From: a virus
Strand: one strand, 5' to 3'
DNA: 40,991 nt
IMG/VR virus record: IMGVR_UViG_3300031784_000069
Coordinates: 1-40,991 of that record
The notes beneath the pieces are model-generated. The model saw only the letters and a program-made list of their open reading frames with translations, ran no database searches and had not been told where the DNA came from. A program made the position numbers and the translations under genes. Shown piece after piece: positions 644 to 24,012 of this stretch. Each line of letters begins with the position of its first letter. Positions within the stretch are counted from its first letter, which is position 1.

Positions 644-3600
644 TTAACTACCGATTCTTCTAGGAATCAAAGCCGATTCCTCTGCACTAATCACCGCATC
701 GCCTTCTATTTGTAGCTGCTTTGCGTATACTGTAGCGAGATTATTTGTTACTAGTTCCCAGTTCAAGGTAACTGCATGTCCGTCTTCATAATACTCGTCC
801 CAGAATATAGTAGGCCACTCTCTTGTCTTATTGTAAGTAGCTTCTAGAACTTTATATTGAACTAAATCATTATATAGTTTATTTGTCTGCTGATTTGTTA
901 ATCCATATCTAACACTCGTATCAAGCAAGACGGATATTGGAGCAGTATAAACTAACCCTAATACGGACAATGCGCTCAATATAGATTCTTTTTTCACGAA
1001 AAGGGGAGAATCTTGATATATTGAATTAAAGAAAGAATCCTTAATTTTTTGCTCGGCTCCAGCACCAGTTTGGTTCCCTATAAAGCAGCTTTCTACAAAG
1101 TCCTTTGCCGACTGAACTATCGACTCTGGCTGGTAATACCATACTGTTCCAAGAGTTCTCTTTGAGTCTGTAACATCTTTGGTATAATTAGCTACAGTAT
1201 TTTGTTCAGCGCCAGCTTCAAAATCTGACTCAGATATAACAGAGCTGGACGCAGCGTTACTTATTCTTATTCTTAAAACAACCAATCTATTTTCCAATTT
1301 AGACTGAACAAATATTTTGGCTTTACCTCCAGGAGTAGTAATTGATGTCATTGTTGTTGAAGGGGTCGAAGAATCGCTATAACTTACTCCTAGATCACCA
1401 TCATTTGAGGTAACGGTAAATGTATTTGTTTCGCCTGAGTTTATGCCATCAAATCTTACGGTAAATGTTGCACCAGAGATAACATCTTCTACATCAAACG
1501 TGTCACCATCTTTGAATTTAGTTATCTTAGCGATAACGCTAAATAATGATGGCTGTAAATCAGTTCTATCTGGCCCCAAGCCACTCAACTGCAACACCCT
1601 TGCATGAACAAGAGCATTTTCATAGTCTATGTATCTAACTAGATCTGTTATCTGCTTTTCTTGCCAGCCAAGACTCTTAAGGAGATCATCACTTCTAACA
1701 AAAACATTTCCTTCTGGAGTTCTAACCTTAGTTCTTGCGCCGAGAAGTCCAGGTAGCAATACTTTAGAGTGGTGCTTGCCAACGACCATTCCCTGATTGT
1801 AGGATAAGCCTGCATCCATTGGTTGACCATTTTTATTTAGGTATTGGACATAGCAGCCGTGTTGATCTAGCACATTATCCCTAATCCATTTCCATCCCTT
1901 CCATGCCAATTGGCCAACTATCGGTACCGACAAAGCAATTCCGAAACCGGCTGCACCAGTTGCTCCAGCTCCCGCCGCCGCAGCGGCAACGCCTACGCCA
2001 CCAGTTAGCGCCGTTGTCATTCCCTGAAAAACTGTTCTACTCGCAGAAGAACCATATTGTTGAATGACAGTTTCTGCTCTTTTTGGAAGAGTCGTAGCAG
2101 TTTGATTTGCCATTACATCTTTAACTAAAGCCGTAGATCCGTGAGTAAACTGCAGACCGCCAATCATTTGTGGGCCTAAAGCGTCTGATAGTCCATCTAT
2201 AGATATATTTCCTCCTACATTTATTCCAGTATTTGAGGCCATTATATTATCCATGTAGAAACGTGTATCATTTCTAAGATTTTGCACAGTGAACCAAGAG
2301 TTGATCCAAGAAGTCAAGAACCATCTAGCGGGATCATTTACGGTCACAAGCGCATTCGGAGTAATTGATGTAATGTATCCCATTTCGGGAGTAAAATGAT
2401 GGACAACTTGCTCTACCTCAAAAATTCCATACATTCTTTCGTAAACATCTGACAAATAAACCAAGTCATGCGGACGAATATCTGCATTACCTATAACTAT
2501 GAGCTCTCCACCATATATATCTTTGATGGATTCCTTCAAGTGAGCTAAGGCTATTCTTTTTGCGGAAAGTTCATCAGGTGTTCCTTGAACATTCTTCGCA
2601 ATTCCTCTAATCGTTTCCATTGGATGCATGATTGGATGAAGTACGCCCAAGAAACCTGATCCTACAAAATTATCATAATACAAACCTGTTTCAACAGTTT
2701 TTTCAGTTTGACGCTCTGCTGGAGCACCTTTATCTAAAGCTACTGTAATTGGATATTTACCATCTGAAACTGCGGTAACTACGGTTGACACGCCATTCAA
2801 ATTCTCTTGAATCTGATTTGATATAATATGAGAAAATGAACTTAGATAATGGATTCTTTGGAAGGGCTGTCTGATTTCCAATACGGGTTCGCCATATTCG
2901 CGAGTAAACGGATTATCAACAGCCCTTAATAAGGTGCCCTCTCTTCCTAATGAATAATAAATAGAGTCATTCAGAACTTTGTTTAAAATATGTGCTTGCT
3001 TACTAAAATTGCCAACCTCTGAGATGGCATAACCCATTTGCATCATGGAAAGCTTGAACATTCCAAGAAGACCAGAAAGACCGTCACCTATTGCGGTCAT
3101 AATTGGTCCGATATTTCTATCGTAGAAATTACCAATATCTTCAAGTGTTCCAGAAATAAATGTCGTAGCACCAGTTCCCTCAGATTTTGTTGAAACTAAT
3201 AATTGAAGGAACTTATTGTCATCCTTAGCGTACTGGCTATATGGATTTATGAAAGCCTCAAATATCCTATCGATAGGTTTGAATGACCACTGACCGTCAG
3301 ATCCTCCGCCTCCACTCGTAATTAAACCTCTTTTACGGTTAGGCTTCAAAACCAACCATGCTCTGCCATAGGCTGAGTTCCAAAGCTTTTGCCTAAATAA
3401 ACCAACCATTAAAAGGAAAAGCTGTTTTGGAGTTTTAATTTTTTCATTTAGAGCAATGGCTTCTTCTGGTTTTTTGGAATTATCTAACGCGTATTCAAGA
3501 ATTGTATTAATTACTGGAGAGTCAAAAAAGTTTTCTCTAATACCATTAAGTGCATCAGCAATTGTTGAGTTAAAGTATTGAATGATTCCGGCGTCTGACT

Positions 3601-6600
3601 CGTTTTCTGCGGCTATTAAATCTATATAATTTTTTCTTATAAACTCTACTGCTTTTCTTCTTTCAATTGCATTAGTTATAGGAACGCCTTGCCCACCTAG
3701 TTGTGGATTGTTTGGAATATTAAAATAGTCAGCGCCCAGCAGGATTGCTAATTCATCGACAGCTGTATTTTCGGTATCAGCCAGTCCAGCAATTGGAATG
3801 TTCGAATCCTCAAAGTTTTTAAAACTATCCTCAATAGAAGATCCTAATATTCTAGAAAACTCTTCTGGGAAAGGATCAATGGACTCTGGATCCATTCCGT
3901 AAACTTTTGCAAATATTCCCTTAACGCTATCGTATGTGTGATATCCAAATCTAAATTGATCCCATATGTCATTTGCTTCACTAAGATTTCTTCCATCACC
4001 AGCTATGACCGAAACATTAGGGTCAAAATTCTCATCATAATAAGATCTAGCTTCTACTCCAACAGAATCCAATGGATCATACACACTTAAGAATGCAGCT
4101 CTTCCTTTGGCGGAATCTACATCTCCAGTTGTTGATAATTCTTCATCCAAAATAGAATACAAATACTGTCTAGACAAAGAGCTATCACCAATCATGTCGG
4201 CAACTTCGCCATCAAGAACAGACTGATCAATATTTGAAACATCACTAAAGCTAGATATTTCTAACAAAGTATTAAAATAACCAGAGAATGGTTTATCTCT
4301 TCCATCTGGTACGGCTAACGCATTACCGCCAAAATCAAATCTACTAGAAGAGATCTCAGCATTTACTGGAACCCATTCTGAGAATATATTTGGTGGATCC
4401 ACTAAATCTTTATCATAAATTACAAATCTTGAACTAATACCTCCACCTAGTTCATTTCTAAGATCTTGAGCATTAGCTTTCCTTGCTGTTAATTCAGCAA
4501 GTTGGCCATCTTCTGTCATTGTATAATTTCCAAATCCAAGAATCATGCTATCAGCCATTGAGGGGCCGTCTTTTGCTTTAAACTTTTTGATAGGAGCTGC
4601 AGAGGAAGATACAACGCCTACAGGAACATCATCTGGAACAAAGGCAAAGAGACACTCTACTGGTTGCGGGTTTATAGATAAGCCACTTTCGTTTTCGTAA
4701 TTTAGCTCATCTTCGTTGCCAAAAATAGATACACCTAATCTGTTAGCTATCTTACTTCCTATAATGCCGGCACCGCTGGTAAAGCTTAAAACTTTACCGG
4801 CGTAACCTATCAAATTATTTTTAAAATCACCAACAGCCTGTACTGCGCTTAGTGTAGTGTTAATCCATGACGGAAGCTGATCTAATATACTTGTTTCCTC
4901 TTCATCAGCTGACAATTTAAAACTTAGGTCTTTAGATACAAAGTTGCCCAAATACCAGGCGGCGTCGGGTGAAACAACAGCTGCTGTGTCATCATCATCT
5001 TCGCCCCAAAGGAAGTATGCCGGAGCGCATACAACAGCTCTATTAGTTCTAGGGCTAACTACTAAGACTTTTCTATTTTTATAATCTTGTGCTGTTCCAT
5101 ACAAATCTGTAAAATTATATTTTTCTTTAAACTTTTGTATGGCCTCGTCAGAAACATTGATATCATCACTACCAGGATTATATGGCCATCTCATCGCTAT
5201 GTAGAATTGTTCTGCTTCAGCAGCTGTTTGTTGAGAAGCCGGTAGGTCACCAGGTGAACCCCATTCTTCATATGATATTTGGTTTGCCAATTCATACTCG
5301 AAAGAATAATCATCTGCATTTCTTTGCGCTTCAGAAGAAGTTACAGAATACTGAGAAAGAGCAGCTTGATCAAGAGATATGCTAGGTCTATTTGCGTAAA
5401 CTGATGGTAAGGGCATTCTTACATATGTTGAGGTTGCTCCGCCAATAAATGACAAACCATCCACATCAACCATATTGTCTATAAAAGTTGAGAAGCCTAA
5501 AGGACGATCTAATTCTAATATTCCAGAAGACGGCACTAGCGTTAGTTCATTATTTAAAATGAATTTGCTTTCATACTGAAGTAGGGTGAACATATTTGCC
5601 ATAAATGTTGCACCACCGAAAGATCGTCTGTCTTCTGCCATAGCCTCATTGACAAATCCCTCAAATTCTTCGGCGTCCATGGGCACTTCGCCTTCGTTTG
5701 CCAAAAACTTTCTTCCAGATTTTCCAATATCCTTGAAGTGACTTGCAGCGTTCTCGAAGACCCCACCGTCTCTAACGGTATATGATGTCGTGTCTAATAT
5801 TACTGTTTCATTTATAGTATAGAATGGGTACCTAAATCTTGGTGGAAGATTGTCTAATTGGGCGTGATTATCGCCTGCCTGAGCTATTGTTGTTGTGGGA
5901 TCTCCAACAGGAAGGTGGAAACCAACTCTTGTTAATCCAACAACCGTTGGTAGTTTTGCAACTATTTTAGTTGAACCATCTTGCTGTGTTTCAGAAAATG
6001 TTGCAGCTAACGGTGAGTTAAAGTTAATTATTTTTTCTTTCAAAAATGCCGTAGGCTTATAGACACCTTCGGAATTCAACTGATCACTCGCAAGACTGGC
6101 CATTGTATCAGAAAGTTCATTAGACCTCTTGAACGCCTCATAGTCAGCCAATGTGTTACTGGATTTGTTGATGTTATTCATGATATTTTCGATGTCTTCG
6201 TCCGGCGAACGATACTTTGGATAGCCTGGCAAACTTAATTCAGATCCCCTCTCTGTACTAGGAAATCCTGTAGTTACAGGAACAACTCCAGAAGTATAAA
6301 GCCAGTGCGGTTTACCATAAAAAATTGTAGATCTATCTTCAAATGGTCTAATTGCAACAATATAGTTTGGAAGCAATCGGGCACAAACTTGGAAAAGATC
6401 CCAAACAGTTCTCATGTATGTTTGCGCTCTAAATGAAACCTCATCAAAACCAGGTAGGTCGTCGTCAGCATTTGGTGCGATAATTCCCATTAACCTAAAG
6501 AAGTTTGTTCCGCCTCTTCCTCTGAGAATTCCAAAAAGACCTCCCCCAGAAATTCCTGCTCCAGCAGCAAAACTTACTCCAGGTATCAATCCGATAGAAC

Positions 6601-9600
6601 CAGCTAAGCCACCCATAAGTATATTTTTTGTAGCGTTAGCTCTACCTTCAGCAGCTACGAGCTTGTTGCCAGCTGTCATTGTTCCTATGGCCGTCCTCGC
6701 TGAAACAGACTCATTTTGAGCTTCAACTATAAGTCGATTCCATGATCTATCGACACCTCTTTCAAGGTACCCTTGTCCCTTTAATTTCTTGTCATCCTGT
6801 TCCACAAGAGAGGACGCAGTAAGCCACCCATCATCTATATCTCCACCAAGGAATTGGGCAAAACCTGTTCCATTTCCAGGATAAATATTTCTCTTAAATA
6901 TTTCCAAGTCTACTTCGGCACAGAAGTTTGACATGAGTTGCCCCATGCTTGTCATAATTCTTCCATCTCCGAAAAATGTACTAACAGGGTTGTTTGTGAA
7001 AACATTTGTAGCTAATTTAAATGATGCGGCATTAGCAGCACCACCTACATCGCCTTGTCCAAGGTTAGAGTAAACACTAGCGACTACATTTCTAATTCCA
7101 TCAGCTCTTGCTCTTTCAGATTCGCTTAATGGTTCATATAACGTTGAACCAAAATGACGAATTCCAAATCTATTTTCAGAAAAAACAGTTCCATTTGTGG
7201 CTCTAGCAAAAGCTTCTCTAAATCTTGACGCACCCATAGAAAGAAGTCTCACCATAAGATCTCTAGGCTCAGAAAGATACATTCCTGTATCTATGCCACC
7301 ATCTATTTTTCCAGTGTCACCTTTTTTGTTTGTAGAGTTAACTATTGCGCCAAGCTCAATAGCGTCAGACTGCGCAGTAACTGTTACGATTTCTCCTTGC
7401 TCAACATTTGTTATGACGCCATTGAAAACTGTTTGTAGAGAATTTGGATTTGCTCCATATCCGACTCTTAGATGAACACGAACACCAGGCTTTAGTCTAA
7501 TATTGTTAATGTCAATTACATAATCGTTTCTCATTCCAGAAACAATATTTTTAGCTATATTTAAAGTTCTATCCAAGATAGATTCAATGCCTTGAGTAAA
7601 ATCTATTGGTGCATCGCTTGGTTGATTGTCTCTAGAATTAAATATTTCTGTAGAAGGACGAGTAGTCAACTTTGAATACATGTTGGACACTCTAAATATT
7701 AACGTGTCCCCTAGAAGATCTTCTGAAGATACAACAGAAAAATCTACTATAGATTGCATTCCATAAAAATTGTCAAACAGCTTAACTCCGGCAAAAAAGC
7801 CACCTTCGTCAATTAGCCACAACATATAAGTAGGAAATGCTCTAATCATTCTTCCAGAAATGTCTCGATACTGGACATCATTCATCATCTTCTGTATGTG
7901 GCCACCAAAAGATCCATCATAAGCTTTTTGATATTTATCCAGAGATTGTACGCCCTCAACTCCAGTAAGCGTATTTGTGCAACCCCTATCTGGAGTTTGT
8001 GTATCTTCTATATGATTTTCTGCTAGTCTCTTATTCCCGTTGTCATCTATATGAACATTTGAACCATCGACTGTTAGATAGAATCTTCCATTATCTTTAT
8101 TGATATAACCAAAATGGGTCCCCAATGCAGACTGCATCATTGCAGGTACTTCTGATTCTGATCCAGATTCTTGCGGATTTGTTGCCGGAATCATATATAT
8201 CACTTTATGGAAATCTACTTCATCTGGATTAAAGCTAACTTCTGTTTCGTTTGCCAAGTGTGAATCTGATAAAACTTCTTTAATTAAATTTAAAGTTTCT
8301 GCGCTTGTATATTTTAGATTACCAACAGAATAGCCTGCTCCAACAATTTCTTCAAATACTGGACTATCCTCTGTGGATTGTGCTGCAATAAAGATGTAGT
8401 CAGTTAATAATCCTTGTTTTTCTGAAGTTTCAAATTCAGAAGTTTGAGTTTGTATAACTTCTTGAAATAAAGAAACAAAATTATGAACACTTATACCGCT
8501 ACTGTTAACGTAGCTAATAATTTCATTTATTAATGTCTGATTGTTGCTAGCTCTTTGAGCTGCGGCAAATGGTTCGCTTCCAACATCCCTATAGGCGTAG
8601 CGTCTAAGGAAATCTGTAATTCTATTTTTAACTTGATTTTTTCTGATCTCTATAGCGCGAGCATCCCCGAGCTTTGCCCAATCATCACTGTAATCAAATT
8701 TGAATTCTTTTGTTATATCGGGTTGATAAATGAAGTTATTAATAACATCTTTATCGAACATTTCAAAGCTTCTAAAATAAAAATCTGGATCTAAGTTTCC
8801 AACGACTTCATCATTTTTATCGCGAACCTCCAGTGGCATATCGGGATATGCATTAAACGCTCCCCACAACTGCTTAATTCTTAAAAATGGATTTCTCTTT
8901 GAACCAAAATGTTCAATAAAATCACTTTGCTGTTTTGATGAAAGCTTTTCTCTTTGCTGCTGGAATATATCAAAGTCGACAAGGCTCAATTGCACATTGT
9001 ATACGTGCGGATAATTAGGTATAGTATCTACTTTAAAATTCAAAGGAATAACATATTTAATTCCGCACAATGCAGTAATAATATTTTTCATCCCCAAGAA
9101 ACCAATAACACCAGTTGAGTGCTCAAGTCTGGCTAAAGAGTTAATGTGATCAAAGATTGCTCTAATCTTATAAAGCTCTCTTTCGCCAAAAACAGTCATT
9201 GATATATTAACATAAGAATCTTTTCCGCCTATATATTGATAGGTCGGCTCATCCTGCATTTGAACCTGTAGCTTTGCAAGATTGTTGCCAAGACTTATGC
9301 TAACGCCGTTGACTATAGCTTTTTTAGGATCTAAATCAACCCGATTCATGGGAACTTCCCATTCCTGGAAGTGGTAATCTCCCTCTCTTAAACGCTTAGC
9401 CTCCATAAGATTCTGCACATAACCGTCTGAAAAGAAACGATTATACAAGGAAAGCATGAATGCATCAGTTACTTGCTGTCGCACCTTTTCTTCGTCAGGA
9501 ACAGCTATTTCGACACCTAAAACTTTTCTTCTTTCAACTTCTTCAATGACTAAAGTATCTATGATATTGCCTGATTGAAAAACAGAATTCCATATACTTC

Positions 9601-11764
9601 TTTTAATGAAGTTTAAGCTAACATTATCATTTTCATCATTAAAAACTGGATCATTTAAAATGTATGATCCCTCTGTTGGATATTGCGAGAAGTAATCTGC
9701 ATCGTAAGGCATCTCATCTGGACTAAGGTATTTTAGTAGCCATTCCTTTTCTTCAGCGCTTAATTTAATTAAGTTGCTGGAAATAAAGGATTGCATCTTA
9801 TACCTATAGATACCAGCCCTGTAGTCAGATTGACTAACTCCAGCGGTCATAATGTCTACTGCTTGACGAACAAATGTTGCCGTAGAAGAAGCAAATGTTG
9901 GCTCCAAAGAAAGAGACTTAACTTGGTTTATATCTTTAATTGCTGGCGTATTAGGAGAAATCTCGATTCCAAATTTTGCTAATAAGCCATTCCATAGGCC
10001 ATAACTTTGTTGATCTAGAATTTTTTCTTGTTCACTTCTAAAAGAAGTAGTGTCTGGCAAGAACATTTTTGTCTGAGTTTCAGCTGGAGTATAAAAAGTT
10101 AAGTTACTTCCATCTCTCCACTGAGAAACTATATTTGTATACAAAACATCATTCTCATAAGTATTAAGTAATTCAACTGTATCATCAGTCAAAGAAGAGT
10201 CAACAATTGCCGATTCGCTTGTCACTGAAGAACCATAAGGGCTAGTCTGATATATGTAATCCCCACTGCGAATCAAGCCAGTATTATCTTCGCTCTCTTC
10301 AGAATTTCTATTATCTGAAGTCTTCAACAAGAAAGACTCATTGGCATACTTGTGCATTGCGCCAGCAGCCTTGCCCATATACTGCCTATATTTACCCCAG
10401 TGAATGGCTTGGTTAAAATCTTTAACCATAGGTAGAAATGGCTTATGATTGTAGCTAAGTAACTCAAGATCAACCATTAAAGAAAAAGGATAATTAGGCA
10501 CTGTTGAAATAGACATAGAAGATAGGGCTACAGCGGTAATTCCATGAACAGAATTTATATAATCATTTTTTATCGGGAGTATAGGTGAATATTTAAAAGC
10601 TGCAATTAGACCTCGCAAAGAAGAAAGAAACTTATCTATTTTTTCTTCTGAATCACCACTACTCTTAAAGTCTATTTTAAAATTTTCTTTCAAATTTATT
10701 GACGAGGCATCACTTATGTGCATGCCCCATATTTCTTGATAGTTTGGAAAAAATAGTCTTAGAGAAATTGAAGTCTCTTTATATCCTGCATTATATTTGG
10801 GTGTATTTCTTTGCCTGATTGCTCCACCAGTAAGTGATCCAGTTTTGAAAGCCGAATTAACTGTAACAGAAATAGGCGGAACATAAAAGTTTGCTGCGCC
10901 TAAACGAAGATGAAATATATCGGGCTTTTTAGGAGGTATATTTGCTCTAAATGGAAAATCTTCTATAGCCTTACGAATTCTTGCCGAAGTATTCCCACCA
11001 TTAATTCTGAACGCCATTGTGAATATTGGTTCACCATTTGGCGCTACACCAAAAGCTTTCTCTAACTCTTCAATCGCGTCTTCTTCTCTATTGAGAGTAT
11101 CTTCTCTTCCCCCACCTTTACCGGCATTAGAATAGTCGCCAGTGACAGCTAGTGCATCGAAAACGAAAGTCATTAACCCTGGAAGGTAATGATTAATAAT
11201 AGAAAAAGATATTGGATCTGCTTGCAGACTGTAAACTACTTGACTCAAAAGAGTTAACCATTGGGTATCTACAGCTGGATCTACATGGTAATCCAATGAC
11301 TTTTGGGTCATGTAAACATTTTGAAGCCTTTTTTTGCCAAATTCACTTATTTCATAAGCAAATGATGCAAGATACAGTAGCCCTGTTGACTCTAGCCTCT
11401 TATATAAATTAATTAAGAGAGCGCCATCGTCAACAAGAGAAGATAATGTTCCGCCAGAAGTAAATACCCTACTGGTTGCTTCAATTCTTTTTTGATAATT
11501 GTCTGTATCGGATTTAAAATCCTCTGCTCCACCTGGATCATCAAAATTTTTTAAATCTGGAATAACATCTGGTCTTGTTATCGAGAAGAACCTTTCGATT
11601 GCCTCAAGTGGATTACCTGTAATGTCATCAATACTGCCAGTCAAGCCAAGCGGGCCAATCATCATCATATTCATAAAAGCCTTTTGGCTATAGTCATATG
11701 ACAATGGATCAGAAGAGTTTAGATTCTGTTCTCCTTCATTTTCTGACTGCTCAACATTAGACAT
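644..11764 (-). CDS. Giant baseplate hub protein (3706 aa), multi-domain fusion
   Basis: This very long protein probably forms the core of the baseplate at the tail tip. Visible parts, in order: two tube-like repeats (about 285-445 and 805-945), each ending in a PNYP...V.L.L motif; a gp27/late-control-D-like hub domain (about 1415-1470, RVHLRVGYGANPN then VFNGVITNV); a Gly-rich hydrophobic stretch (about 1709-1752); a barrel-like segment (about 2189-2274); a second hub-type segment (about 3090-3155, DLVYLSDVYERMYGIFEVE, ending in NALVTVNDPARW); an Ala/Gly-rich hydrophobic stretch (about 3249-3295); and a staphylococcal-nuclease-like domain (about 3412-3545, DGDTF at 3419). The ATG at 11764 has an AAGGTGA ribosome binding site. 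Hubs of other contractile-tailed phages are usually a few hundred residues, with these functions on separate genes. The hub assignment is fairly sure. The nuclease-like and barrel assignments rest on motifs only. Confidence 0.85.
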   Translation of the reverse strand: MSNVEQSENEGEQNLNSSDPLSYDYSQKAFMNMMMIGPLGLTGSIDDITGNPLEAIERFFSITRPDVIPDLKNFDDPGGAEDFKSDTDNYQKRIEATSRVFTSGGTLSSLVDDGALLINLYKRLESTGLLYLASFAYEISEFGKKRLQNVYMTQKSLDYHVDPAVDTQWLTLLSQVVYSLQADPISFSIINHYLPGLMTFVFDALAVTGDYSNAGKGGGREDTLNREEDAIEELEKAFGVAPNGEPIFTMAFRINGGNTSARIRKAIEDFPFRANIPPKKPDIFHLRLGAANFYVPPISVTVNSAFKTGSLTGGAIRQRNTPKYNAGYKETSISLRLFFPNYQEIWGMHISDASSINLKENFKIDFKSSGDSEEKIDKFLSSLRGLIAAFKYSPILPIKNDYINSVHGITAVALSSMSISTVPNYPFSLMVDLELLSYNHKPFLPMVKDFNQAIHWGKYRQYMGKAAGAMHKYANESFLLKTSDNRNSEESEDNTGLIRSGDYIYQTSPYGSSVTSESAIVDSSLTDDTVELLNTYENDVLYTNIVSQWRDGSNLTFYTPAETQTKMFLPDTTSFRSEQEKILDQQSYGLWNGLLAKFGIEISPNTPAIKDINQVKSLSLEPTFASSTATFVRQAVDIMTAGVSQSDYRAGIYRYKMQSFISSNLIKLSAEEKEWLLKYLSPDEMPYDADYFSQYPTEGSYILNDPVFNDENDNVSLNFIKRSIWNSVFQSGNIIDTLVIEEVERRKVLGVEIAVPDEEKVRQQVTDAFMLSLYNRFFSDGYVQNLMEAKRLREGDYHFQEWEVPMNRVDLDPKKAIVNGVSISLGNNLAKLQVQMQDEPTYQYIGGKDSYVNISMTVFGERELYKIRAIFDHINSLARLEHSTGVIGFLGMKNIITALCGIKYVIPLNFKVDTIPNYPHVYNVQLSLVDFDIFQQQREKLSSKQQSDFIEHFGSKRNPFLRIKQLWGAFNAYPDMPLEVRDKNDEVVGNLDPDFYFRSFEMFDKDVINNFIYQPDITKEFKFDYSDDWAKLGDARAIEIRKNQVKNRITDFLRRYAYRDVGSEPFAAAQRASNNQTLINEIISYVNSSGISVHNFVSLFQEVIQTQTSEFETSEKQGLLTDYIFIAAQSTEDSPVFEEIVGAGYSVGNLKYTSAETLNLIKEVLSDSHLANETEVSFNPDEVDFHKVIYMIPATNPQESGSESEVPAMMQSALGTHFGYINKDNGRFYLTVDGSNVHIDDNGNKRLAENHIEDTQTPDRGCTNTLTGVEGVQSLDKYQKAYDGSFGGHIQKMMNDVQYRDISGRMIRAFPTYMLWLIDEGGFFAGVKLFDNFYGMQSIVDFSVVSSEDLLGDTLIFRVSNMYSKLTTRPSTEIFNSRDNQPSDAPIDFTQGIESILDRTLNIAKNIVSGMRNDYVIDINNIRLKPGVRVHLRVGYGANPNSLQTVFNGVITNVEQGEIVTVTAQSDAIELGAIVNSTNKKGDTGKIDGGIDTGMYLSEPRDLMVRLLSMGASRFREAFARATNGTVFSENRFGIRHFGSTLYEPLSESERARADGIRNVVASVYSNLGQGDVGGAANAASFKLATNVFTNNPVSTFFGDGRIMTSMGQLMSNFCAEVDLEIFKRNIYPGNGTGFAQFLGGDIDDGWLTASSLVEQDDKKLKGQGYLERGVDRSWNRLIVEAQNESVSARTAIGTMTAGNKLVAAEGRANATKNILMGGLAGSIGLIPGVSFAAGAGISGGGLFGILRGRGGTNFFRLMGIIAPNADDDLPGFDEVSFRAQTYMRTVWDLFQVCARLLPNYIVAIRPFEDRSTIFYGKPHWLYTSGVVPVTTGFPSTERGSELSLPGYPKYRSPDEDIENIMNNINKSSNTLADYEAFKRSNELSDTMASLASDQLNSEGVYKPTAFLKEKIINFNSPLAATFSETQQDGSTKIVAKLPTVVGLTRVGFHLPVGDPTTTIAQAGDNHAQLDNLPPRFRYPFYTINETVILDTTSYTVRDGGVFENAASHFKDIGKSGRKFLANEGEVPMDAEEFEGFVNEAMAEDRRSFGGATFMANMFTLLQYESKFILNNELTLVPSSGILELDRPLGFSTFIDNMVDVDGLSFIGGATSTYVRMPLPSVYANRPSISLDQAALSQYSVTSSEAQRNADDYSFEYELANQISYEEWGSPGDLPASQQTAAEAEQFYIAMRWPYNPGSDDINVSDEAIQKFKEKYNFTDLYGTAQDYKNRKVLVVSPRTNRAVVCAPAYFLWGEDDDDTAAVVSPDAAWYLGNFVSKDLSFKLSADEEETSILDQLPSWINTTLSAVQAVGDFKNNLIGYAGKVLSFTSGAGIIGSKIANRLGVSIFGNEDELNYENESGLSINPQPVECLFAFVPDDVPVGVVSSSAAPIKKFKAKDGPSMADSMILGFGNYTMTEDGQLAELTARKANAQDLRNELGGGISSRFVIYDKDLVDPPNIFSEWVPVNAEISSSRFDFGGNALAVPDGRDKPFSGYFNTLLEISSFSDVSNIDQSVLDGEVADMIGDSSLSRQYLYSILDEELSTTGDVDSAKGRAAFLSVYDPLDSVGVEARSYYDENFDPNVSVIAGDGRNLSEANDIWDQFRFGYHTYDSVKGIFAKVYGMDPESIDPFPEEFSRILGSSIEDSFKNFEDSNIPIAGLADTENTAVDELAILLGADYFNIPNNPQLGGQGVPITNAIERRKAVEFIRKNYIDLIAAENESDAGIIQYFNSTIADALNGIRENFFDSPVINTILEYALDNSKKPEEAIALNEKIKTPKQLFLLMVGLFRQKLWNSAYGRAWLVLKPNRKRGLITSGGGGSDGQWSFKPIDRIFEAFINPYSQYAKDDNKFLQLLVSTKSEGTGATTFISGTLEDIGNFYDRNIGPIMTAIGDGLSGLLGMFKLSMMQMGYAISEVGNFSKQAHILNKVLNDSIYYSLGREGTLLRAVDNPFTREYGEPVLEIRQPFQRIHYLSSFSHIISNQIQENLNGVSTVVTAVSDGKYPITVALDKGAPAERQTEKTVETGLYYDNFVGSGFLGVLHPIMHPMETIRGIAKNVQGTPDELSAKRIALAHLKESIKDIYGGELIVIGNADIRPHDLVYLSDVYERMYGIFEVEQVVHHFTPEMGYITSITPNALVTVNDPARWFLTSWINSWFTVQNLRNDTRFYMDNIMASNTGINVGGNISIDGLSDALGPQMIGGLQFTHGSTALVKDVMANQTATTLPKRAETVIQQYGSSASRTVFQGMTTALTGGVGVAAAAAGAGATGAAGFGIALSVPIVGQLAWKGWKWIRDNVLDQHGCYVQYLNKNGQPMDAGLSYNQGMVVGKHHSKVLLPGLLGARTKVRTPEGNVFVRSDDLLKSLGWQEKQITDLVRYIDYENALVHARVLQLSGLGPDRTDLQPSLFSVIAKITKFKDGDTFDVEDVISGATFTVRFDGINSGETNTFTVTSNDGDLGVSYSDSSTPSTTMTSITTPGGKAKIFVQSKLENRLVVLRIRISNAASSSVISESDFEAGAEQNTVANYTKDVTDSKRTLGTVWYYQPESIVQSAKDFVESCFIGNQTGAGAEQKIKDSFFNSIYQDSPLFVKKESILSALSVLGLVYTAPISVLLDTSVRYGLTNQQTNKLYNDLVQYKVLEATYNKTREWPTIFWDEYYEDGHAVTLNWELVTNNLATVYAKQLQIEGDAVISAEESALIPRRIGS

Positions 11765-17316: not shown

Positions 17317-20300
17317 TTATCTAACTCCTGCACTTATGTCAACTTGTTGACCACCAAATGGATTCATCACAGGCGTTACGGAACCAGTAACCCCCATGCC
17401 ATTCATTAAAGATCGCAATCTATATGCTACGTCTGCATTGGAGTCCGAAGAGTAACCGAACCGAGGATAGCTTGGATTAGCAAGATTTGCTTCTCTTATC
17501 TGTTGTGGATAGTAACCCATTTGAGACATTTCAAGACCCATGTGTTGGCCTATTTTAATTTTAACAGAATCCATATTAGTATTGGGATGCCACCCTTCCC
17601 AGCCTTCATCTGGCAGCTCGTGTCTGCTGAAATAGTCTGTTAATTCTGGGCGCTTTTCCACCTGCATACCCCATGCAGCTTCGTATATTCTTCTTTCTAA
17701 TCTGCCAGCTGTTGAAAGTATTCTTTCTCTATCTTGCTCTGGAGCATTTATCATTGCCTTAAAGTGTTCTCTTTTTCTTTTAGGAATAGCAAGAGAAAGA
17801 GATTCAACATCTGTTCCATATTTTCCAGTGCCAATATCCTGTATGGGCGCACCATACATTGTTCTTTTTGCTGCAGAACTAAATTGGAAAGCTGCCGCTG
17901 CATCACCAGATGCTTCAGCCATATTGGCTAGTCTTGTATTTTTGACATAAGTTAAAATATCAGAATACTCTTCAAGAGCTAGTTCTTTCTTTCTTTCGGT
18001 TGGAATAAATCTATCCCCAGTTATTGCCTCCTGAAGATTTGCCCCGGCGGAAGCTGCTAGTCCAGTCACTGCACCCAAGCCAGACATAACCAACTTACCT
18101 GGCTGAGTCCTGCCAGCAAAAAGGCCTGCAGCAGCCAAGCTTGCAGAAGCAGCTATTGGATTGCGGTCTGCTGCTTTATTTATCATTGGCTCCACAAAGC
18201 TTTCAAAAGGCCTTTGCCATTCTGGGAAAGTTGCGCCATAAACATTGTTTCTTTCCCAATCCTCAACCGCAGTTTGTTTATTAATAAACTTTCTATTTAT
18301 AAAAGTATCTCTATGCGCAATATATTCTGCTGCACGAGATATATTATGAATTAAAGGATTTGTTCCAGCCTCTGCTGCTGTTTTACCAACATGACTATAT
18401 TCGGAGAAGTTTTCTTTTTGCTGTATAGAGGCTACTCTATTTCTAATGTTATCTGCCTCTAATTTTTCCGAAGGGTCGTTAAGATAACTATCTATTTTTT
18501 TATCTAAATATCTATATTGTTTAGAGTAGGGCGCAACATCTCCTAAGATCTTAAATTGATCTAATAAACCATATCTTCCAGTTTCATCAGAACGAAGTTG
18601 ATTTAGCCTTTCGTATGCCACTCCTGGCAAACGCAATTCTCCTTCTTGGACTTTAGTGAACGGATCTCCTCTAGTAAAGTCTAAGTAATATTCTGGGCCT
18701 GGTAAAAATGGATACTGTTGTCCCATTGTATTTTGTATAGGATTAAGATAATCAACTCCAGTTCTTTCTTTTGGTATAAATCTTCTAGTTATTTCAGAAA
18801 ATTCTATTGAACCAAAGTTCCTTCCACCCAACATCGGAACGTCACCAAGTCCTCCAAGGTTATAGTCCCAAAACTGTCTACTCATTCCGTAAGCTTTAGA
18901 TGCAGACTGAAGAACTGCCCTTTGGGGCTCAAAGTCACCCTGACCATAACCAAAGGATTCCCTAAATGCTGCGCCAGCAAAACCATATATACCCAAGGCT
19001 TCCTGTGTTCTATAGCCAAATTCTTGTATCTGAACCTGTGGATTACCAACAGAAATTGGCGATCCTGCACCAACTATTCTTGGTGGCATCATACCAGGAG
19101 TTTTCGGCGGACCATATGCCATTTGGGCATACTGACTATTTATCTGCCCTATGTTTTGCATCGTTGAATATTTAGCTGTATTCAAAGCTCCAGCTCTACC
19201 TGCTAGCTCGGCGTTTGATGATGCCTGCATACCCGGACCAGGTCCGCCAGAAGACATGCCCATAGACATAATTGGTCCTGCTCCCTGCATAGCTCCGCCA
19301 ATTGACGCTTGACCAAACTGTTGCTGCGGAGCCTGCCCAGGAAGCATAGGCATTGAAATTTGTCGCAAATAAGCGCTAGCATCATATGCGCCAGATTGTC
19401 CTGCCGGAGCATAATTTGATAATGCTTGAGAAACCTCTTGCTCATGCATTTTTATTTGTGGCTTTAGTACTCTTCCAACAGTAGCATTTAAGGCGGGAGT
19501 CAGCGGACCAAATGGACCAGAAAAATATTCTCCAGTAATAGGATACGGTCTATCTTCATAGTGTTTTCTTTCGAAACGATAAGGATCTAAAGGACGCAAT
19601 GGTGATATATCAGTATAGAATAAAGCTCTTTCAATAGGCGAACCATAGGTGTCAGATGTAAACATGGCGCCAGTTTCAATCTTGCGATAAATACTGGGCC
19701 TATAATACATTATCTTTCCGCCCATAAAGGGTGTATTGCCCAAGGGCCAAAAACGACCCTGTCTTATGGGAACCTCTCCTTCAAAAAGCTGCTCTCTCTT
19801 TTCTTCGTAGCTCATACCGCCGGGCATAGCTCCAGCTCCTAGGGCGTGAATTTCTCCAACAGCTTTTGCGGCAGCTCCGACAAAAAATGGAGAATAAACT
19901 CTTTCTCCTCTTGCATCTTTTTCGTTGACCATCCCGCCAATTGTTCTGTCAGCAGTCATAAAGGCCATGCCACCAGCATAAAGTGGCAAAACCCTCTTGC
20001 CTACCATGCCCCTAGCAAACAAGTCTAATGGCGAACCATACTGATTAACGTCTAGCTGTAAGCCTACTGTTCCAAAGTATTTGTTTAATCTTTCAACACC
20101 ATGAGAAACTGCGGCTGATAAATTTGAATAACTCTCTGGACTACTGTACGTATTAATACCAGCAACGCTCTTGAGGGCGCCTATTGGATTTCTAGAAAAT
20201 ACGCTACCAAAAGTAGGAACTAGTAAAACGTCAGCACCGGGGCCAGTTGCGGAACCAAGTGGGTCTGTTGCTAGATGAGATATTTTGAAAGAAGCTGTAC

Positions 20301-23300
20301 TTAATGATGGATATAATAATTTTTTAAATAAACCAAGTCTTCCTATTTCCCCAACTCGTTCAATGGAACCACTAATAAATGGTTGCGCCAATTCTGGAGC
20401 AGACTCTAAAGATTCAATAACGTTTGCTAACGCTCTTCTTTGAACTTCAATCTCTTTTAAGAAAGATCTATTTGCTCTTACCGAGTTAAGGTTAGTTAGT
20501 GCACCAAAGGCCGCAGCTTGTGCTTCAGCTAGTTCACCAGCTGGTATTTCTTTTGCCATGCTTGTCAGTGCTTGGTTTATTTTAATAAAATTTTGACCAA
20601 ATGTTTGTCTAGTGCTATTTGAAACTAATTCATTTCTTTGAATTAGAAACTTAAACATTTCATTTGTTAATTCATCTTCTCTTGAAATAATTGTTGGACT
20701 AACAGAACGAATTTGAGAACCAGACAACAGATCTGCTTCCTCTAATACTTTATTGATCCTGGATCCGCTTTGATATAGCGCAACAGGATCGATGCCCTGT
20801 CTTCTAAGAATATTTGCATCTCTGTCTACGCCTCTAAGCAGGACGTTAGCAAAATCTATTTTTTCCTGAACATTTTGAAGATCGGTAATTTTTTGTCCAT
20901 GATAAGTAGCTAATGCTGGGTCAGCTTCTTCAATTCGCTTCATTGCACGACGAGAAAAGCCAGCTGCACGAGTTCTTCTTCTGAATCCTTCAAAAGCTTC
21001 TAATAAGGCTTTTTCTGAAACCATTTCTTCGCCAGAGGCAACATCGATTACATTAATTTTTTCTACAGTTCCATCAGCGCTTTTTACTATATTTCTTTTT
21101 GCTGTACCAGCTTTGGTAGGGATTTCCTTGCCAGTCATCACTTGTGCAAGGAATCTTGGATTTTCTGGATCAATATTTCTTCTAGAGAATCTAGACAAGA
21201 AGCCAAATACAGAGTTTGGCTGATCATAGTTAATATCAAAAAATTCTCTAAACCTAAATTCTCTTTCTGGCGTCATTCCAAATCTTGATAGGCCAGAAAA
21301 GAATCTGCTTCTAAATGTACCTTCTTGATAACTTAAAGAGTTTAATGACTCAGCATCTCTTTCCGCTGCAGCGTTTCTTGCTGCCCTCGTTAACAATTGC
21401 GAGCTATTCTTAGCTAAAGGTCTAAATGTACCATCTAAAGTCCTAGAAGTATATTGCTGGGCCATGACATTATAATTAAATGCCATAACATTACCTTTTG
21501 TTCTTCCTCCGCTGTAGAACAAATAGAAATCAGCCGACTTATCAGCGCCCTGTAAAAATGGCTGAGAAACTCTACCTTGAATAAACTGGAACGGAGCCCT
21601 TCCGGACATTTCATTAAAAGATTGCTTAGCCGCCAAATCTGCCGGATTAAATCCAAGAACTGGTATTCTTAAATCGTTAGCTAAAAAGTTTCCAACATTT
21701 CTTGCAGACTGTCTTATTCCAGAAACATCTAAAATACTACCAGTCTTAGTTATAAATACATCTGGAAGAACAGAAACGCTAGCAGCGGTTGTCGTTGGAT
21801 CAGCCCTTACCATGCTGGAAGACATTTGATTTATAACGCGCTTGGTCTCATCGTCTACATTTGCAAAAACTCCGCGTTGATTTGCTTCATCAACAGTGAT
21901 TCTTCTTAATCCAAGAAGGTTAAAACCACTAGCAAAAACTCCCGAACTTATTTGTTTTTCTCTAACAAGAAAACTTCTTAATTGACCGGCATCTTTTATG
22001 TTAAGGCCGACCTTACCTAAAGACTCCCCTAATTCTCCTCTTGTTAAATCTCTGCCATCAGCTGTCTTTAGCCTCATGCCTAATCTTTGAGCTGATCTTT
22101 TAACTAAGAAATCTTTTTGTGCGTAAGAAAGATTATCTAAATCTAGGAAATCTTCAAAATCTGCTTTTTTAGTTTTTAAGACTTTTCCAGCTACCTTAAC
22201 CATTCCTTGTTCCTGGAATGCCTTATAAGCTTTGTTTGCCTTTCCTTTTAATGCTGCCTGGAATTGTGCGCCAGTGAAAAGTCTGTTAGCGTCGATAATA
22301 GAATCTTTTAGTACATCAGAATTTCCGACTTTTTGTACGAACTCATCGGCCCTAGTTTTTGCAAGAGTGCCCTTGAATCTATTTATGATTTCATCAAATG
22401 GCTCATCTCCATCGAGTAGTATTTTGGTTTCGCCTATAGTTACTCTTCTAGAGGGCTCCATTGCAGTTTTGCTAACGTCAATGTCGTCAACAAATTTTGC
22501 TATTGTTCTTGCAAACTCATCTCTATCTGAAGTTGCAGTTCTTTCCATTAAGGATTTATATAAAACTTTTTTATACTCAGTTTGTTCTATTCCCTTATAA
22601 AACTCTGATGCATAGAAGTTATCTGATCCAGCCGGACCACCAAATGTTCTAGCAATCTTGCTAGCCATAGTCGTCATTCTATTAGAGGAGTTCGCCTGAA
22701 GGTTGCCGACTATTCCCTTTAGTTCTGTTCTAAAAGCATTTGGATTAGCTGCGCCATATCTCTGCACAGCTGCATCAAAATCAATAGCTCTCGTTATTAC
22801 ATCGTAGCCGTAGCCAACTTTACGGAATTGATTTATACCCTGCCTTACGGCACTTCCAACACCTCTTAGTCCCGGAAATAAATCTAAATACCCAGAATTG
22901 CCACTGGCGTCATTGCCAAACGCATACTGCGTTGCTACGTTTCTAGCTCTTTTTAATTTTGAGCCCTTAGAATCCTCATAGATCTGTTTTGCTCTTAAGT
23001 TTCTTGTTCGCGAAAGAATTGCATTAATGTCAACTCTTTGCTGACTATACTCTGTGGTTGCAGCTTTAATTGCTCCACTAGTTTGAGCAGAAACCTTTAA
23101 ACCCTTTTGAGTTATGTCTGCCAGGTCATGACCAACCTCTGACAACATGTCGGCTAGATTGACAAATGCCCTTGAAGATCTTGTTTTTAAATCAGTTGTA
23201 CCGGTAGACCTAGCTAGGTCTGACATAGAATATCTAAAATTAGATAAGGATGACCTTGCGTTGCCAATGGCAGCGCCACCAACCTCCATTGGAATCATCA

Positions 23301-24012
23301 TGGTAACTAGGTTAATGGTAGAGTCCTTAACGAAGTCCGTAACTACGTCTACAGGATTGTACCATTTGACCTTAGAATCGTCTCTACCGCCAAAAATTGG
23401 ATCAACTATAGCTTTCTGGCCAACATACATTGCTGGCAGCTCATAGGGCATTCTACGGGCCATAGAGACCAAACGGGACTGAGCTTCTTCTCGGAAGCCC
23501 CATATTCCCGCAGTCTCGTATTCTATACCCTTACCACTTTTGCTGATTTCTCCAGCAGTCCAGTGATAGCCTCTATCTGTATGCTTAATGACGCCGGTAG
23601 TTAATTTACCTTCTGCGGTTTCAAAAACAAGTCTTGAATAAGGATCTATTTGATCAGGAGTATTCCCATCTATCATTCGGCTAACGCCAGAAAGTTCGTC
23701 GAATTCTCTTCTGATTTTAGGAAATACATTAACAATATTTGAAGCAAATCTGCTTGCTCCACTATCCGCTCTGTCTTGAACTGTTTTGGCTAGCTTTAGA
23801 CCACCTTGTTTTGTTATCTTAGACAAAACAAAAGCTGAAGCCATGGTAGTGGCTGCCGTAGATACAAATCTTAAAACAGGGTGATTATTTAAGGCCTTTG
23901 AGATAAAAGACGAATTAGGGGCATCGCCCCTTTCTTCGTCTATCATTGTAGGAACATCTCTGGATGTTACGCTATAACCTAAGTTATGAATAGGCCCTGG
24001 ATCTCTAATCAA
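17317..24012 (-). CDS. Probable tape measure protein (2231 aa)
   Basis: This probably sets tail length and occupies the tube lumen before DNA passage. It is the first giant gene after two small chaperone-like genes, the usual tape-measure position. It has an N-terminal hydrophobic segment (about 46-64), long charged helical regions, a Pro/Gly/Met/Gln-rich flexible region (about 1538-1655), and a Gly/Ala-rich hydrophobic stretch near the C-terminus (about 1948-1998). A fully helical 2231-residue ruler would span roughly 335 nm at 0.15 nm per residue. The start is TTG at 24012: an in-frame TAG lies three codons upstream, AGGAAA sits seven bases before the TTG, and the first in-frame ATG would remove 22 residues. 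No peptidase or lytic domain is visible. The middle is unusually rich in Arg, Tyr and Pro for a tape measure, so another lumen role is possible. Confidence 0.78.
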   Translation of the reverse strand: MIRDPGPIHNLGYSVTSRDVPTMIDEERGDAPNSSFISKALNNHPVLRFVSTAATTMASAFVLSKITKQGGLKLAKTVQDRADSGASRFASNIVNVFPKIRREFDELSGVSRMIDGNTPDQIDPYSRLVFETAEGKLTTGVIKHTDRGYHWTAGEISKSGKGIEYETAGIWGFREEAQSRLVSMARRMPYELPAMYVGQKAIVDPIFGGRDDSKVKWYNPVDVVTDFVKDSTINLVTMMIPMEVGGAAIGNARSSLSNFRYSMSDLARSTGTTDLKTRSSRAFVNLADMLSEVGHDLADITQKGLKVSAQTSGAIKAATTEYSQQRVDINAILSRTRNLRAKQIYEDSKGSKLKRARNVATQYAFGNDASGNSGYLDLFPGLRGVGSAVRQGINQFRKVGYGYDVITRAIDFDAAVQRYGAANPNAFRTELKGIVGNLQANSSNRMTTMASKIARTFGGPAGSDNFYASEFYKGIEQTEYKKVLYKSLMERTATSDRDEFARTIAKFVDDIDVSKTAMEPSRRVTIGETKILLDGDEPFDEIINRFKGTLAKTRADEFVQKVGNSDVLKDSIIDANRLFTGAQFQAALKGKANKAYKAFQEQGMVKVAGKVLKTKKADFEDFLDLDNLSYAQKDFLVKRSAQRLGMRLKTADGRDLTRGELGESLGKVGLNIKDAGQLRSFLVREKQISSGVFASGFNLLGLRRITVDEANQRGVFANVDDETKRVINQMSSSMVRADPTTTAASVSVLPDVFITKTGSILDVSGIRQSARNVGNFLANDLRIPVLGFNPADLAAKQSFNEMSGRAPFQFIQGRVSQPFLQGADKSADFYLFYSGGRTKGNVMAFNYNVMAQQYTSRTLDGTFRPLAKNSSQLLTRAARNAAAERDAESLNSLSYQEGTFRSRFFSGLSRFGMTPEREFRFREFFDINYDQPNSVFGFLSRFSRRNIDPENPRFLAQVMTGKEIPTKAGTAKRNIVKSADGTVEKINVIDVASGEEMVSEKALLEAFEGFRRRTRAAGFSRRAMKRIEEADPALATYHGQKITDLQNVQEKIDFANVLLRGVDRDANILRRQGIDPVALYQSGSRINKVLEEADLLSGSQIRSVSPTIISREDELTNEMFKFLIQRNELVSNSTRQTFGQNFIKINQALTSMAKEIPAGELAEAQAAAFGALTNLNSVRANRSFLKEIEVQRRALANVIESLESAPELAQPFISGSIERVGEIGRLGLFKKLLYPSLSTASFKISHLATDPLGSATGPGADVLLVPTFGSVFSRNPIGALKSVAGINTYSSPESYSNLSAAVSHGVERLNKYFGTVGLQLDVNQYGSPLDLFARGMVGKRVLPLYAGGMAFMTADRTIGGMVNEKDARGERVYSPFFVGAAAKAVGEIHALGAGAMPGGMSYEEKREQLFEGEVPIRQGRFWPLGNTPFMGGKIMYYRPSIYRKIETGAMFTSDTYGSPIERALFYTDISPLRPLDPYRFERKHYEDRPYPITGEYFSGPFGPLTPALNATVGRVLKPQIKMHEQEVSQALSNYAPAGQSGAYDASAYLRQISMPMLPGQAPQQQFGQASIGGAMQGAGPIMSMGMSSGGPGPGMQASSNAELAGRAGALNTAKYSTMQNIGQINSQYAQMAYGPPKTPGMMPPRIVGAGSPISVGNPQVQIQEFGYRTQEALGIYGFAGAAFRESFGYGQGDFEPQRAVLQSASKAYGMSRQFWDYNLGGLGDVPMLGGRNFGSIEFSEITRRFIPKERTGVDYLNPIQNTMGQQYPFLPGPEYYLDFTRGDPFTKVQEGELRLPGVAYERLNQLRSDETGRYGLLDQFKILGDVAPYSKQYRYLDKKIDSYLNDPSEKLEADNIRNRVASIQQKENFSEYSHVGKTAAEAGTNPLIHNISRAAEYIAHRDTFINRKFINKQTAVEDWERNNVYGATFPEWQRPFESFVEPMINKAADRNPIAASASLAAAGLFAGRTQPGKLVMSGLGAVTGLAASAGANLQEAITGDRFIPTERKKELALEEYSDILTYVKNTRLANMAEASGDAAAAFQFSSAAKRTMYGAPIQDIGTGKYGTDVESLSLAIPKRKREHFKAMINAPEQDRERILSTAGRLERRIYEAAWGMQVEKRPELTDYFSRHELPDEGWEGWHPNTNMDSVKIKIGQHMGLEMSQMGYYPQQIREANLANPSYPRFGYSSDSNADVAYRLRSLMNGMGVTGSVTPVMNPFGGQQVDISAGVR

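Follow-up and report, generated by a model that had tools for sequence, protein, structure and literature searches.

The stretch of DNA analyzed here (hereafter, the window) is the whole of the 40,991-nt IMG/VR virus record IMGVR_UViG_3300031784_000069 (positions 1 to 40,991), which comes from a freshwater phage with a contractile tail. A run of minus-strand genes in the window is closed by a giant open reading frame (ORF) that encodes a baseplate hub protein of 3706 aa, and beyond it lies only the start of one further ORF. The genes upstream of the hub ORF include a 148-aa ORF, two large ORFs (1694 and 2231 aa) and a gene for the tail sheath (match to a PHROG of that name, E = 4e-20). The genes considered below are:

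644–11764, minus strand: giant baseplate hub protein, 0305phi8-36/ME3-like (ORF of 3706 aa; tblastn; PHROG 20474 and 8809)
17317–24012: 2231-aa protein, homologous by blastp to MTATph1 CDS0026 (E = 1e-37) and KLEB27-3 gp031 (E = 3e-22)
27830–29092: 420-aa ORF, matching tail sheath PHROGs
30070–31665: 531-aa ORF, in a position occupied by a further sheath gene in MTATph1 and KLEB27-3; no PHROG match at E ≤ 0.001

The label of tail hub, from which the original prediction started, is correct, given the matches to annotated hubs, the gene order and the relationship to the T4 gp27 family. A part of the hub compared by tblastn with the hubs of cultured phages matched those of MTATph1 (E = 2e-18), KLEB27-3 (E = 3e-17) and ME3 (E = 2e-9), proteins that are annotated as ‘endolysin’, ‘putative baseplate protein’ and ‘baseplate hub protein’. 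The order of genes, from the sheath gene(s) through small tube-size genes and large structural proteins to the hub, is similar, if not identical, in MTATph1, KLEB27-3 and ME3, the MTATph1 order differing by a transposase gene in between. The annotation of the ME3 hub, ME3_37, gives the 0305phi8-36 hub (YP_001429638.1) as its homologue, and the latter (gp147) is placed, in the sections of the 2007 paper dealing with the hub, in the T4 gp27 family, with gp27-like hub domains (PMC2147016). By these similarities, the window hub belongs to the 0305phi8-36/ME3-like family. Among the environmental relatives, tblastn detected hub genes that extend over two or three reading frames, divided at varied places (L066, L068, L070, L071, L077, L086 and L091); the cause may be natural fission of the gene, introns or errors of assembly.

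The C-terminal ~290 residues of the hub comprise a domain that resembles staphylococcal nuclease (SNase). Its elements are given here by window coordinates, with hub residues in brackets; single residues come from the domain residue table and are equated with SNase positions in SNase numbering (R35/D40/E43):

713–1546, minus strand: SNase-like domain with two insertions (~3407–3684), delimited by comparison of AlphaFold2 model 2 with SNase crystal structures (model residues 15–292)
1502–1510, minus strand: DGD (3419–3421), equivalent to D19/D21
1454–1456, minus strand: R3437, equivalent to R35
1430–1441, minus strand: N3442-S-G-E3445, equivalent to D40-T41-P42-E43
1295–1333, minus strand: helix (3478–3490) equivalent to alpha-1, followed by the beta-4 strand (3494–3501); secondary structure of model 2
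1157–1159, minus strand: R3536, equivalent to R87, at the start of beta-5
800–1129, minus strand: helical insertion (~3546–3655) between beta-5 and alpha-2, family-wide (model 2 helices 155–255; alignments)
725–772, minus strand: VTLNWELVTNNLATVY (3665–3680), read as the alpha-2 segment (alignment by eye and structural match to model 289–292)

The presence of SNase motifs is confirmed. When rechecked in the 3706-aa ORF, all three lie where they had been placed: DGDTF at hub residues 3419–3423 (window 1496–1510), VRFDGINSGET within TVRFDGINSGET at 3435–3446 (window 1427–1462), and the late-Arg motif, SKRTLGTVWY, at 3534–3543 (window 1136–1165). As originally read, both Asp of DGD, R3437, E3445 and R3536 are retained, with Asn in the place of Asp40 and Gly in that of Pro42, and the spacing of R3437, N3442 (+5) and E3445 (+8) matches that of R35, D40 and E43. 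Thus, R3437, E3445, R3536 and D3421 supply the R35, E43, R87 and D21 of a canonical thermonuclease; because the second metal ligand, D40, is replaced by N3442 in the window, and the activity is predicted from sequence, we do not class the domain as one. In SNase, D40 is a Ca2+ ligand, and its replacement by Asn may weaken or retune metal binding.

The insertions and the C-terminal border differ from the initial description. The interval from E3445 to R3536 spans 91 residues vs 44 in SNase, so that the extra segment between the ET motif and the late Arg is ~47 rather than ~70 residues long; the main insertion, helical and ~119 residues in length, follows the late Arg (R3536 to N3668 is 132 residues vs 13 in SNase). 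The domain does not end at ~3545: an alpha-2-like segment is located at 3665–3680, and the structural match reaches hub residue 3684. This segment, VTLNWELVTNNLATVY, was recognized because alignment with the divergent relatives L017 and L021 (30–33% identical), which have DGTPYTLNWDLVEKGLAKVY and DGTPATLNWELVANGLAKVY there, exposed it; the assignment was made by eye and by structure match, not by hhalign, where the first ~150 columns align well and the bacterial alpha-2 ran into the insertion with low confidence. Compared with staphylococcal/micrococcal nuclease (PF00565; PDB 1SND, 1STN), the window domain has the same OB-fold order, beta1-beta2-beta3-alpha1-beta4-beta5-alpha2, and D19, D21, R35, E43 and R87 at matching places, and differs in its fusion to a 3706-aa tail hub, the changes of D40 to Asn and P42 to Gly, the ~47 and ~119 additional residues (E43 to R87 and R87 to alpha-2, respectively), and two family features, an invariant beta-4 Arg and a W-P-x3-W-D motif before alpha-2. 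The Arg (3498, model 106, window 1271–1273) and W-P-x3-W-D (hub 3650–3668, window 761–817) both fall among the 15 columns that never vary across 43 divergent domains. To our knowledge, classic SNases lack this motif; Arg 3498 and W-P-x3-W-D may anchor the insertion on the barrel or be part of the active site.

Relatives were collected in two domain scans, which yielded 22 viral loci, and in a scan by hub-core alignment, which covered 80 of the 171 relatives; several of these 80 loci are on contigs of the 22-locus scans, and several are near-copies of each other. For profile-profile comparison, the C-terminal domains of 43 phage homologues were aligned and, as the same set, realigned (40 were used after the hhalign filter) and matched to 18 bacterial SNases. 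The result was a strong match (Prob 96.5, E = 7.3e-10, score 67.3), well above the controls: no score exceeded 23.2 in 30 column shuffles, and the reversed query scored 20.7. An HMM of the bacterial SNases recognized the longest hub ORFs of 65 of the 80 loci at E ≤ 1 and of 53 at E ≤ 0.01, with no match outside the C-terminal part of the 80 hub ORFs; the 15 misses are the degenerate L050 and 14 loci whose longest ORF stops before the domain. In the window hub, the same HMM produced a single match, to residues 3413–3453 (E = 0.0079 in a small hub set), and no match at E ≤ 0.01 in a larger ORF set. Pfam SNase (PF00565) matched 6 of the 43 family members at E ≤ 1 (best, 0.0011), and was not found at E ≤ 10 for the window domain or at E ≤ 1 for a longer piece. 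PHROG 452 (‘endonuclease’) matched the window domain at E = 0.093 and 29 of the 43 members (best, 6.9e-9) as well as the SNase domains of MTATph1, KLEB27-3 and ME3, and PHROG 20876 (‘nuclease’) matched 13 of the 43. The window piece alone gave chance-level matches only among PDB sequences and no tblastn match in the phages collection. Because single-sequence searches are weak or empty, the case relies on the family profile and the fold, and the window copy is one of the divergent copies in the family.

Two AlphaFold2 models were examined. The first, built from 12 sequences, was poor (pLDDT 56): the 50 Foldseek matches listed for it were all SNase or Tudor-SN, at E = 0.087 or worse, and the 50 VIA matches listed, all with Z of 5.3 or below, included no SNase. 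Conclusions on the fold therefore use the second model, built from 43 sequences (pLDDT 79.5, pTM 0.77, barrel-strand blocks about 79–95), in which model residue i is hub residue 3392 + i. It consists of strands 15–25, 30–35 and 41–46, a helix at 86–98, strands 102–109 and 144–150, the helical insertion at 155–255, and a helix at 275–281. The 50 Foldseek matches listed in the PDB were without exception SNase or SND1 entries (E = 1.1e-3 to 5.1e-3, prob 1.00); the E-values, weak taken alone, did not fall below 0.001, perhaps owing to the insertions. VIA-align placed 1SND at Z 12.1 (107 residues, rmsd 3.2) and the other 49 matches listed at Z 10.8–11.1; the matches listed span the model from 11–15 to 289–292, with 102–111 residues aligned and 23–26% identity for SNases. 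Tudor-SN/SND1 (PDB 4QMG, 7KNX), among the structural matches listed, shares the SNase-fold domains and, unlike the window protein, is eukaryotic and multi-domain. The top BFVD match was a ‘Baseplate hub protein’ of uncultured origin (E = 3e-24), with a TNase-like protein next (E = 2e-3).

With the five-stranded OB barrel, alpha-1 between beta-3 and beta-4, alpha-2 after beta-5 and the profile homology, the domain belongs to the SNase fold superfamily; we regard the fold as near certain, and neither of the two refuting outcomes named along with the original prediction, a fold lacking the OB barrel and the lack of a profile match, was observed. The weak or empty searches with the window sequence would suit a scatter of chance motifs in a beta-rich tail domain of other ancestry. 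This reading, which we consider scarcely credible, is at odds with the shuffle-controlled profile match, the fold matches, the HMM and PHROG 452 matches, and the canonical IDTPEL members within the same alignable family; in our view, the profile and fold results already rule it out.

SNase domains recur across this hub family, which rules out the window domain as a unique case. Three distinct phages in the phages collection have an alignable hub (ME3 is present twice), and all three hubs contain an SNase domain detectable with the bacterial-SNase HMM: near the N-terminus in MTATph1 (Moorella; residues 142–249, E = 6e-13) and KLEB27-3 (Bacillus; residues 161–287, E = 2.8e-6), and internally in ME3 (Acinetobacter; residues 1102–1225, E = 2.5e-15). 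Pfam at E ≤ 0.1 confirmed the SNase in only one of the three, ME3 (PF00565 at 1126–1241, E = 4.7e-14), where an M23 peptidase domain follows (1301–1401). An SNase domain, intact, retuned or degenerate, is present in 77 of the 80 environmental loci, the other 3 being cut off. The finding of a nuclease in a hub stands; that it is unexpected, as originally remarked, does not fully hold, in view of the ME3 match and of the 2007 paper, which noted an N-terminal SNase domain in the hub homologue of BtI1, a phage-like region of B. thuringiensis israelensis, and called the reason for it not obvious in the part concerned with the hub (PMC2147016). The BtI1 protein, compared by description only, resembles the window protein in the fusion of an SNase to a 0305phi8-36-like hub, and differs in the terminus that carries it (PMC2147016). 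For the 0305phi8-36 hub itself, the same part reports peptidoglycan-degrading domains and makes no mention of an SNase (PMC2147016), which suggests that hubs of this family can do without the nuclease. Thus, it seems that the same hub protein carries an SNase N-terminally, internally, C-terminally (in the window clade) or not at all. In the portions of the open-access full-text literature covered, nothing was found on the C-terminal form.

Several further SNase-like sequences were noted in relatives. Homologues of the 2231-aa protein in L146 (MTATph1 CDS0026, ~1410–1520) and L144 (a 2202-aa ORF), the latter a phage-like contig placed in the bin of an Acholeplasmataceae MAG, contain an SNase-like insert that lacks the usual catalytic motifs (HMM domain E about 0.004 each, the rest by eye); the window protein (17317–24012) lacks the insert, and the blastp alignment breaks at its residues ~1872–1896. 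A 399-aa ORF near the tail genes of L144 (467–1663, plus strand) has a clear SNase domain (E = 2.7e-12 and 5.2e-11). In L081 (~16377) and L084 (~12219), the frame changes at a similar place within the hub SNase domain, between beta-4 and beta-5, so that the domain halves are in different ORFs; L083 appears alike.

Two more elements precede the domain in the window hub:

1778–1855, minus strand: conserved module CYVQYLNKNGQPMDAGLSYNQGMVVG (3304–3329), ahead of the SNase domain (alignments)
1901–2017, minus strand, borders approximate: glycine/alanine-rich hydrophobic stretch, upstream of the module (hydropathy peak 1.47 at residue 3266)

The hubs of MTATph1, KLEB27-3 and ME3 have, as judged by eye, a module-like stretch close to their C-terminal end. 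Behind this ‘NGxxxxAG’-like module, there is a VanY-like stretch in MTATph1 (E = 0.0026, below the Pfam cut-off), a short tail in KLEB27-3 and the SNase in the window clade; the position may therefore be an exchangeable enzyme slot. MTATph1 and KLEB27-3 share with the window an alignable hub core and an SNase domain, and differ from it in having the SNase near the N-terminus and, in MTATph1, the VanY-like C-terminus; similarly, ME3_37 of vB_AbaM_ME3 shares the hub family and the SNase domain, and differs in the internal location of the latter, followed by the M23 peptidase. In the window hub, as in those of the three cultured relatives, the hydrophobic peak begins 39–46 residues ahead of the module. 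In the cultured hubs, it is the whole-hub maximum; in the window, it is the fourth highest peak, the highest (3595) being inside the SNase insertion; and among 13 hubs tested by hydropathy, it is outside the top four in L036 and L041, which makes a membrane-delivery signal only suggestive. Conceivably, after tail contraction, the C-terminal part of the hub (hydrophobic stretch, beta module and SNase) enters or crosses the inner membrane and degrades nucleic acid, of the host or of a competitor, in the cytoplasm. The conserved placement of the peak and, in the window clade, the location of the SNase after it fit this proposal, whereas the L036 and L041 hubs, the SNases at the opposite end of the MTATph1 and KLEB27-3 hubs, and the Ca2+ requirement of SNases, which speaks against action in the cytoplasm, do not; we consider such delivery improbable.

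The conservation of the active site was assessed for 65 hubs with 53 distinct domains, that is, 84 hubs less 19 left out of the residue table (2 truncated at a contig end, 12 whose hub ORF stops early and 5 in which the script missed the motif). D21 is present in all 53 distinct domains, D19 and R35 in 52 each and E43 in 50; R87 is found in 48 of the 51 that extend that far. In the available text of PMC8436206, catalytic roles are attributed to R35, R87 and E43 of SNase. Position 40 is Asn in 47 of the 53, Asp in 3, Ile in 2 and Glu in 1, with Asn somewhat over-represented because L068, L070, L072 and L076, which have the D40-type, canonical IDTPEL, were left out. This position is Ala in L071 and, as read from the sequences of the cultured hubs, Asn in MTATph1, Gln in KLEB27-3 and Asp in ME3. 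Bacterial SNases have Asp at this position in 17 of 18 cases, an approximate baseline because these 18 were picked out of 35 loci (L109–L143) by a motif in which D, N or Q was accepted there (the count pattern missed L118, with D at 40 when read by eye).

Of the 80 loci, 66 retain all five other residues, D19, D21, R35, E43 and R87, within a single frame (62 by script; L070, L071, L072 and L076 by eye). The catalytic set is split over two ORFs in three loci (L081, L083 and L084; R87 was read by eye in L081 and L084, and L083 is assumed to be L081-like given the same ORF length and motif), and the domain is cut by the contig end in three more (L035, L048 and L077). In the remaining eight, from two lineages, several catalytic residues are lost: in L050, positions 19, 35, 43 and 87 are G, K, R and N, and in the L096 group (L086, L091, L092, L096 and L103–L105), DGD and R35 are kept but positions 40, 43 and 87 read I, S (or N, K) and K. 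In a tree of 49 domains, degenerate domains appear in two places and D40 in three, within an N40 background; the placement of L050 is unsure because of its long branch. The dN/dS ratio is 0.03–0.50 over 17 close pairs, several of the values being rough because dS exceeds 1, and 0.06 for L096/L103, the one degenerate pair tested. The domain is therefore under purifying selection, even where catalysis looks lost, and the constraint on L096/L103 indicates that it has some use without catalysis.

These observations bear on the two options raised originally, a nuclease acting on entry and a fold reused for binding. Catalytically dead domains of Tudor-SN, in which the SN domains have lost catalytic residues, provide a precedent for the second option, under which the SNase fold of the hub would bind nucleic acid, such as the leading genome end waiting in the tail, or cap the hub. 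Judging from the two degenerate lineages, such reuse can occur, and it would accord with the Asn in 47 of the 53 distinct domains, the constraint on the degenerate pair, the SNase-like insert without the usual motifs in a neighboring large virion protein of two relatives, and SND1 among the structural matches listed. As an account of the window domain, we deem it possible, if on the unlikely side: the other five catalytic residues persist together in the 66 very divergent loci, and the exceptions, L050 and the L096 group, lose several at once, both of which suit catalysis better. The conserved catalytic residues would thus favor the nuclease-on-entry option.

On balance, we believe that the hub C-terminus is a divergent, insertion-bearing SNase-fold domain that most likely works as a metal-dependent phosphodiesterase (nuclease) on the tail tip, although our confidence in this is only slightly better than even. 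The fold, homology, near-complete co-conserved catalytic set, constraint and recurrence in the hub family are computed; nucleic-acid cleavage, metal use and the timing of action are what we infer from them. SNase-type enzymes need Ca2+ at extracellular levels, which are absent from the bacterial cytoplasm; from this need, it would follow that the enzyme is silent while new tails assemble and becomes active once it meets the host surface or the periplasm. The domain would then act outside the cytoplasm, during adsorption and envelope crossing, clearing extracellular DNA or cutting nucleic acid encountered at the surface or in the periplasm. Phage tail tips carry peptidoglycan hydrolases, and the role of the nuclease would parallel theirs. 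Several considerations go against this explanation: position 40 is Asn in the window, as in the majority of its relatives; the two degenerate lineages have lost several catalytic residues, with constraint persisting in the pair tested; the window sequence gets no Pfam SNase match; and no SNase is mentioned for the 0305phi8-36 hub in the text on the hub (PMC2147016). In addition, a nuclease would endanger the phage itself if the C-terminus were placed beside the DNA exit.

A broader scheme, bold and in our view unlikely, casts the hub as a general enzyme-delivery platform, with SNases acquired or relocated more than once (in slots at the N-terminus, internally and at the C-terminus, and as inserts in a neighboring large virion protein). 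At entry, the contractile tail would then inject or present an active nuclease that attacks nucleic acid of the host or of a rival, making it the phage equivalent of contractile secretion systems with nuclease effectors on their spikes. Because SNase domains recur across the tail-tip protein of relatives, these phages may carry a tool for cutting DNA or RNA at the point of host contact. The C-terminal SNase of the window clade is a variant of the kind of hub SNase noted in 2007 for BtI1, in the text on the hub (PMC2147016), and the question posed then, why a hub carries an SNase, is now directly testable, with the natural homologues providing both active candidates and built-in dead controls. 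If active, these domains would represent a little-explored kind of phage entry tool.
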